Shown: positions 29,570-33,634 of the stretch, piece by piece
Numbering within the stretch: position 1 is the first letter of the stretch
How the letters are laid out: each line of letters opens with the position of its first letter
DNA from: Myxococcota bacterium
GTDB lineage: Bacteria > Myxococcota > B64-G9
NCBI GenBank assembly: GCA_022710975.1
Contig: JAKLGA010000012.1
Coordinates: 186,001-250,000, forward strand
Reading direction: 5' to 3'
DNA length: 64,000 nt
The notes under the pieces: generated by a model
What the model saw: the letters and a program-made list of their open reading frames with translations, nothing else
The model's database searches: none
What the model was told of the DNA's origin: nothing
Made by a program: the position numbers and the translations under genes

Positions 29570-29598
29570 TTGTGCCACCTGGGGCAGGGTGCTAGACT
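29570..29598 (+). promoter_or_regulatory. Predicted promoter for secA
   Basis: TTGTGC (29570-29575), 17-nt spacer, TAGACT (29593-29598), then GGAAGGAGG (29611-29619) before GTG 29631. Confidence 0.6.
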
Positions 29599-29630
29599 GC
29601 GCCACCGATCGGAAGGAGGTCGGACCGGCC

Positions 29631-32375
<2,745 letters not shown>

Positions 32376-32450
32376 CCCTGCCTCGACCGAACCCCAAGAA
32401 ACTTCTCGATGCCTACGGAACCCACGAACGGCATCCACCGTAGGCGGAGT

Positions 32451-32513
32451 GGTCCTCCGCCGGCGAGGGCGCCTTGGCAGTTTGCCCTCAGGCGCCCTCG
32501 ACGGAGGAGGACC
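32451..32513 (+). ncRNA. Candidate structured RNA or secA 3' hairpin
   Basis: Two 23-nt arms pair over 21 of 23 positions, with G-T type changes that still allow G-U pairing in RNA, around a 17-nt loop. Another stem (32411-32445) stands directly upstream. No T-run follows, so an ordinary intrinsic terminator is not clear. I do not recognise the RNA; 6S RNA, a terminator with poor tail or an unknown sRNA are possible. Confidence 0.35.
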
Positions 32514-32584
32514 CCGAAGCGAGGGCAGTGCGTGGGCAGACCGGACGTAGATTCTCTGGTGGCGTTGCGGTTTCCAAGTTTTCC

Positions 32585-32613
32585 TTGCCAAATCAGGGAC
32601 CCTGTGTTAGCAA
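32585..32613 (+). promoter_or_regulatory. Predicted promoter for rpsB-tsf
   Basis: TTGCCA (32585-32590), 17-nt spacer, TAGCAA (32608-32613). Leaves a leader of about 150 nt before rpsB, long enough for the S2 autoregulation known in other bacteria (inference). Confidence 0.55.
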
Positions 32614-32770
32614 TCCCGCTCCGTGGTGCCCCCGGGCGCCCAGGAGTTGAGCGATTCCGGGGAGTTGAATTACGCACACCGGCCGGACCCGCCCCGGGTG
32701 CTCCGCGCGCCGCGCGGGGTTGGGCGGGACGATCCCCGGCCGGTGGAGGCACAACCCGAAGGAGACGGTC

Positions 32771-33634
32771 ATGGGCGTGATCTCGATGAAGGCGATGCTG
32801 GAAGCGGGCGTGCACTTCGGCCACCAGACGAGCCGCTGGAACCCGAAGATGAAGCCGTTCATCTTCGGCGCGCGCAACGGCATCCACGTGATCGACCTGC
32901 AGAAGACCTCCCGGCTGTTCGACGAGGCCTTCGAGGCCATCCGGGACACCGTGGCGCACGGCGAGCGGGTGCTGTTCGTGGGCACCAAGAAGCAGGCGCA
33001 GAACGTGGTGGCCGAGGAGGCCAAGCGCAGCAACATGTTCTGGGTCAACAACCGCTGGCTGGGCGGCACGCTCACCAACTTCCGCACCGTGCGCCAGAGC
33101 ATCGAGCGGCTCAAGACCCTGGAGAAGATGGAGCAGGACGGCTCCATGGAGAAGCTGACCAAGAAGGAAGTGCTCCGGCTGCGGCGCGAGGCGGCCAAGC
33201 TCGAGCGCAACCTGCCCGGCCTGAAGGAGATGCAGAAGCTGCCCGGCATCATCTTCGTGGTCGACCCCAAGAAGGAGCACATCGCGGTGTGCGAGGCCCG
33301 CCGGCTGAAGATCCCCGTGGTGGGCCTGACCGACACCAACTGCGATCCGGACGACGTGGACTACGTCATCCCGGGCAACGACGACGCCATCCGTTCCATC
33401 AAGCTGTTCACCACCCGCGTGGCGGACGCCTGCGTCGAGGGCGAGCAGGTGCTGCAGGAGAACCTGACCTCCCGCCCCCAGACCAAGGCCCCCGAGAAGA
33501 CCGAGCGGCCGCGTGAGCGGGTGCAGGCCGAGCAGCGCCCGGGCGGCCCGAAGGTCGAGGTGGTGGGCAAGCGCCGTGAGGGCGAGGCCGAGGGCGGCGC
33601 CCCCGAGGGCGGCGCGGACCAGGGCAGCGCCTGA
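32771..33634 (+). CDS. rpsB: 30S ribosomal protein S2
   Basis: 287 aa. The ATG at 32771 follows AAGGAG. S2 signatures are clear: [54 protein letters not shown], and [24 protein letters not shown]. The core is normal; the C-terminus is extended by about 45 residues rich in charged amino acids, Pro and Gly ([19 protein letters not shown]), which is common in high-GC relatives. First gene of a translation/lipid operon with tsf 45 nt downstream. Its leader may bind S2 for feedback. Confidence 0.97.

Follow-up and report, generated by a model that had tools for sequence, protein, structure and literature searches.

The segment studied here occupies the gap between secA and rpsB, two genes of the forward strand, in a window of 64 kb, which term we use for the whole stretch of DNA that was analysed. 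The elements of the region are the following:

29589–32375, forward strand: secA, the upstream neighbour, with its stop 32 nt ahead of the repeat
32408–32532, forward strand: core of a type A copy of a dispersed repeat
32408–32450, forward strand: 5' module, GATGCCTACGGAACC...CCGTAGGCGGAGT, including an 8-bp stem; the most sequence-conserved part, common to types A and C
32451–32513, forward strand: long hairpin with arms 32451–32474 and 32490–32513, covarying among the copies; an unrelated hairpin takes its place in type C
32514–32532, forward strand: 3' tail with the consensus GCGGAGCGCAGGCACGGCG, kept in most copies
32585–32612, forward strand: promoter-like motif TTGC-N16-TGTTAGCA, outside the repeat
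32771–33634, forward strand: rpsB, the downstream neighbour

The two stems of the core, which a preliminary description had presented as nested-looking, stand instead side by side. The 8-bp perfect stem that it had pointed out is present, GCCTACGG (32411–32418) pairing with CCGTAGGC (32438–32445) in the computed fold as well. The long stem had been described as carrying two changes that keep G-U pairing; the underlying 24-nt inverted repeat is real, with 22 of its 24 positions paired, but both differences are G·A mismatches on the forward strand (32459 with 32505, and 32463 with 32501; C·T in the reverse complement), which positions remain unpaired in the fold. That the segment is strongly structured was borne out: the 185 nt from 32376 to 32560 fold at −89.7 kcal/mol (z −3.89), the reverse strand folds too (z −3.25), and on neither strand did any of 200 dinucleotide shuffles reach as low a value. 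The reported lack of a poly-T tract likewise agrees with our scan, which gave no terminator-like site at the segment, nor does the segment contain a T run. As for known RNAs, of which 6S had been named as one candidate, no Rfam family matched at the gathering score in the whole 64-kb window; at a relaxed threshold, the search of 32376–32770 returned over the repeat only sub-threshold matches, several of them to microRNA or viral families, and these we took as chance.

An rpsB promoter had been placed 70 nt beyond the segment. A sigma-70 scan found none, and the promoter-like motif listed above begins at 32585, 25 nt after position 32560. Among the rpsB loci gathered from 29 genomes, nine are from family members, the genome of the window included, and in all nine of these a TTGC-N-TGNTAGC motif—a pattern of our own making—precedes rpsB by 168–204 nt. 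In the four of the eight family relatives in which secA, recognized by its CPCGSG end, was seen adjacent, the distance from the secA stop to that motif is 26, 38, 85, and 89 nt, versus 209 nt here, where the spacer consists of the repeat plus about 80 nt. In a fifth relative the CPCGSG end lies some 1 kb upstream of rpsB and was not counted as adjacent, while in the remaining three that end was not found upstream of rpsB. Because those four relatives show shorter spacers without the segment, we infer from the spacing, and for this one locus, that the repeat is an insertion. A second comparison of this kind, at the EPSP-synthase/MurA-like neighbour of the copy on contig C10, gave in six family relatives only matches of 37–41% identity, at which level synteny could not be judged.

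Two further observations concern the same gap. In one relative (genome G002, locus L124) the 85-nt spacer between secA and the rpsB motif contains another palindrome, long and AT-rich, GGTTAGCTTTTAGC...GCTAAAAGCTAATAAC, as if this gap took up repeats repeatedly. Downstream, the rpsB leader of the window (32655–32755, forward strand) gave a full-length match to the Rfam family t44 (RF00127) of 29.7 bits (E 1.9e-4 with 395 nt searched), which score is below the gathering value of 44; the locus L124 gave 30.0 bits, and two of 13 loci were matched. Since the nine family rpsB leaders have in common the blocks CACRCCG...CGGYGGAGG and GGGTG...ACCC, and some two-sided changes are seen, this stretch is a possible S2 autoregulatory leader in the lineage.

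What the preliminary description overlooked is that the segment is multi-copy. In a blastn-type search of its own genome (7.13 Mb in 29 contigs) with 32376–32770 as the query, 15 matches were obtained: the segment itself, the reverse-strand match of its hairpin to itself, and 13 other places with 73–89% identity to the window copy over about 110–144 nt. The closest of these, C28:242584–242727, is 89% identical, the similarity extending over 32402–32545. A covariance model built on the 14 copies that we call type A found 23 places in the genome, 14 of them at 102–129 bits and nine weaker, at 42–62 bits. Two of the nine (C5:68091 and C7:139739) keep the module with GATGCC but have another hairpin, and constitute type C; the other seven, designated type B, show a related hairpin but no such module. 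When a type B copy served as the blastn query, 15 places were found, of which 10 were type B, so that the genome holds at least 26 copies: 14 of type A, two of type C, and 10 of type B. The consensus of type A runs from GATGCCTACGGAACC-N-CCGTAGGCGGAGY through the long hairpin to GCGGAGCGCAGGCACGGCG, with a core of about 110–125 bp, and 14 of the 15 exact genomic matches of GATGCCNACGGANNC fall inside copies of the repeat. With similar copies at several unrelated intergenic places, the segment belongs among the dispersed intergenic repeats in general. The copies are fairly diverged, and therefore no recent movement is shown.

A peptide-coding reading of the repeat was discarded: a frame beginning MPTEP is open by eye in several copies, but changes of the loop length by numbers other than multiples of three break it. 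On contig C17 (locus L079, 3011–3129 and 3954–4072), a type A copy is preceded by about 100 bp that recur as a duplicate 940 bp away; the duplicate takes in the first 15 nt or so of that copy, the rest being absent, and is perhaps a truncated copy. A further intergenic repeat of the genome, GAATGCCCKGAGCGATYCACACACGCAGGRTCTGCCAACG, is unrelated to the one described and measures about 40 bp (loci L148–L177; for example C2:189513, and C12:49489 and 49607). For its end, 30 matches with no more than one mismatch were obtained, as against none for a reversed-pattern control; this repeat sometimes forms inverted pairs, which once, on C2, flank a type A copy.

Outside its own genome the repeat is scarcely to be found. 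Among 97 genomes searched by blastn, its own included, two had a match, the second being a partial one of 54 nt (E 2.5e-4), and among 58 searched with the covariance model, again including its own, matches occurred in that genome only, which figures are to be read with the proviso that near-identical genomes may be missing from the sets. Collections of phages, plasmids, and viral contigs gave no match. A lone Streptomyces match in a pattern scan of 84,980 species, having no second hairpin by eye, was taken as chance. The family thus looks lineage-specific as judged from these genome sets. Among the papers listed, judged by title or the opening part of the abstract, there was none on such a repeat in Myxococcota, and the literature search gave none linking a REP-associated tyrosine transposase to Myxococcota or a palindromic intergenic repeat to Myxococcus.

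For the placement of the copies we called genes with a codon-usage caller of our own, for which the loci themselves were the training set (180 genes; 86% coding). All 26 copies lie outside called genes, 17 in unidirectional gaps, nine in convergent ones, and none in a divergent one, whereas the copy-free gaps of at least 130 bp in the same loci comprise 21 unidirectional, 14 divergent, and two convergent. Divergent gaps make up 3374 of the 14,033 bp of available space, so that the absence of all 26 copies from them has a p of about 0.0008, a value that treats as independent copies which are in part clustered. A called stop codon is found within 100 nt of 20 of the copies. In the 17 unidirectional gaps, three copies (that of the window among them) are in the sense orientation and 14 in the antisense. 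Fourteen copies form four clusters, on contigs C28, C5, C14, and C1, each with a single orientation, an arrangement that also brought integron attC sites into consideration; and since the type B copies of C5 stand among duplicated genes, some copies may have spread through segmental duplication.

The comparison of types A and C indicates which parts of the repeat stay fixed. The C5 type C copy, aligned with the type A copy C17:53355, shares 39 of the 43 positions of the 5' module and 17 of the 19 of the tail; the long hairpins, by contrast, agree at only 30 of 63, the shuffled average being 0.47. The corresponding figures for the C7 copy are 35/43, 17/19, and 33/64. The two type C hairpins nevertheless resemble each other (42/50), and both fold. 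The tail of the window copy has diverged further, and with it the type C tails agree at 13 or 14 of 19 positions, which is near the shuffled maximum of 0.71.

We consider it very probable that the segment is a copy of a dispersed intergenic repeat that forms hairpins and is non-autonomous—a small mobile sequence of the REP/ERIC-like sort—inserted between the secA stop and the rpsB promoter, which reading is favoured because the anatomy, the intergenic location near 3' ends, the occurrence of both orientations, and the syntenic gap all fit it. Such a repeat would be moved by an enzyme supplied in trans, which might recognize the conserved 5' module and the tail, the exchangeable long hairpin serving only as structure. 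As a first guess, and a tentative one, the mobilizer could be a single-strand enzyme of the HUH/Y1 type, because the repeat is rich in hairpins, shows no target duplication, and has no clear terminal inverted repeats. By analogy with REPs, a copy beside a stop codon would probably be transcribed, here within the secA 3' untranslated region, and may there stabilize or shorten the secA message, as has been proposed for them.

Five Y1 transposase genes (PF01797) are present in the genome. The 16,122 bases made up by these genes with 1.5 kb around them contain no covariance-model hit, and no transposase stands beside the repeat at any copy tested; that a single-strand transposase acts in trans is accordingly a guess, since no Y1 gene is near any copy. 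Comparison by blastn of the Y1 surroundings with the copies gave short matches only, the best of which (L005 with L020) involves a GC-rich flank outside the element. Four of the Y1 genes are related to one another (L018–L021, at C4:154010, C1:306895, C5:190227, and C3:17283) and carry an NHFHL or NHFHI motif; three of those loci share about 0.7–1.2 kb at 88–89% identity and thus represent a multi-copy element. A more elaborate proposal, which we regard as rather unlikely, is that of a modular, lineage-specific mobile repeat in which the conserved 5' hairpin and the tail are recognized by an enzyme and bracket a freely swapped folding hairpin, the whole being served by a single-strand recombinase of its own. 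If that were true, the cargo of this small mobile element would be a structure.

An alternative to mobilization as single-stranded DNA is that the repeat is a MITE of the DDE type, with the imperfect terminal inverted repeats TGCCTACG and CGCAGGCA, moved by a resident insertion sequence. The size of about 125 bp suits that proposal, and by eye TGCCTACG at the 5' end matches CGCAGGCA of the tail in inverted orientation with one mismatch; the inverted match is nevertheless short, the IS-like Y1 loci do not have these ends, and 15 of the 16 type A and C copies, the remaining one lacking a right anchor, showed no target-site duplication of 2–9 nt at any tested boundary offset. We therefore hold a DDE-type origin to be improbable.

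The reading as a small mobile repeat must also be weighed against selection on an RNA, for which covariation among the copies is the pertinent evidence. We tested the 28 pairs of both hairpins over the 14 type A copies with 500 shuffles. Standard pairs fill 96.7% of the cells, and two-sided changes occur at 10 of the 28 pairs and in 30 cells, the shuffled means being 5.2 and 10.4. The covariation score was 0.223 versus 0.092 after shuffling, none of the 500 shuffles reaching it, and was at most 0.045 when the 3' partners were slid; the count of further pair types, reached by 114 of the 500 shuffles, was unremarkable. Nearly all this signal is carried by the long hairpin. The short stem contributes one two-sided pair, in two neighbouring C28 copies, which pair is broken in three of the 14 copies, and single-sequence minimum-free-energy folds leave that stem unformed in several copies (both of type C, and the one on C26); the short stem is therefore well conserved as sequence and poorly proven as structure. 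Departures from pairing in the 14 copies comprise seven G·T and three A·C (p = 0.34), which numbers constitute no significant RNA-strand signature. The arms of a DNA palindrome can, moreover, become alike through copying between them, so that the covariation could stem in part from such arm-to-arm copying rather than from selection, and is for that reason no proof of an RNA role.

The preliminary description had attributed the differences between the arms to a selected RNA fold, and compensatory change does keep the structure; that change, however, runs across dispersed copies of one genome and not across orthologous secA–rpsB gaps, and the relatives, in which covariation was to be sought, lack the segment. 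The spread of the covariation over dispersed copies, and the absence of the segment from the relatives, speak more for a mobile hairpin repeat than for an RNA selected at this locus. A broader version takes the copies for structured RNAs of one multi-copy family, acting in trans as small RNAs or serving as elements of 3' UTRs, with selection on the fold and with dispersal as a secondary matter. It draws on the strong covariation and folding, on the nearness of 20 of the 26 copies to a called stop, by which they are probably transcribed, and on the excess of G·T over A·C, which leans the RNA way though not significantly. Yet in the 14 type A copies the upstream sequence loses its similarity within a few bases, which indicates no shared promoter; with 14 of the 17 copies in unidirectional gaps being antisense, the transcripts would mostly be of the complement; and the window has no Rfam match at the gathering score. 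We accordingly give this version little credence. Least credible of all is a factor-independent secA terminator that happens to be amplified: a strong GC hairpin 32 nt past the secA stop, ahead of the rpsB promoter motif and in a family preferring gene 3' ends, would suit one, but the segment has neither a T run nor a terminator-like site, and the relatives do without it at this place.

With the segment taken as a small mobile repeat, its annotation is corrected from a candidate riboregulator of secA or rpsB to a repeat. The family offers a small, clean case in which to ask by what route a hairpin repeat spreads with no partner transposase at hand, and why the central hairpin may be replaced while its flanks do not change. 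A further lesson is that covariation of pairs, when seen among the copies within a genome, is alone no proof of RNA function.

Among known systems, the likeness is first to the REP, BIME, and REPIN sequences, as these are portrayed in the portions available to us of a REP survey (PMC3733652). REPs are placed there in the gaps of unidirectional or convergent gene pairs, near 3' ends, and sometimes in tandem, from which location pattern the survey infers that they are read through; the present copies are likewise intergenic palindromes with compensatory stem variants, in unidirectional (17) and convergent (9) gaps to the exclusion of divergent ones, near 3' ends and sometimes in tandem. A REP unit, however, has 20–40 bp and an unpaired terminal GTAG or CGTC tag, often with RAYT genes nearby (PMC3733652, same portions), whereas the present repeat measures about 125 bp (core about 110–125 bp), has two hairpins and a low copy number, and has no RAYT beside a copy, none of the five Y1 genes being flanked by the repeat. 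GTAG does precede the long hairpin in seven of the 16 type A and C copies, but inside the 8-bp stem. To ERIC and the other IRU sequences of the enterobacteria (RU-1 of 127 bp, RU-2, and RU-3), taken by the description in the accessible part of PMC2759123, the repeat is akin in its roughly 125 bp and in being intergenic, dispersed, and viewed as a MITE-like small mobile sequence; it is set apart from them, by description and not by sequence, through its bipartite structure with an exchangeable hairpin. The nearest parallel to that exchange, again within the portions at hand of PMC3733652, is provided by composites of P. putida and P. fluorescens in which degenerate GTAG-1 units are joined to unrelated stem-loops, and which thus also combine a conserved unit with an unrelated hairpin; those composites are inverted repeats flanking transposase genes, while here the hairpin sits between the 5' module and the tail. 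Because the REP tag, the REP length, a neighbouring RAYT, and the target duplication of a DDE-type MITE are all wanting, our classification goes no further than a REP/ERIC-like dispersed repeat; the kind is familiar, the family of intergenic hairpin repeats new.
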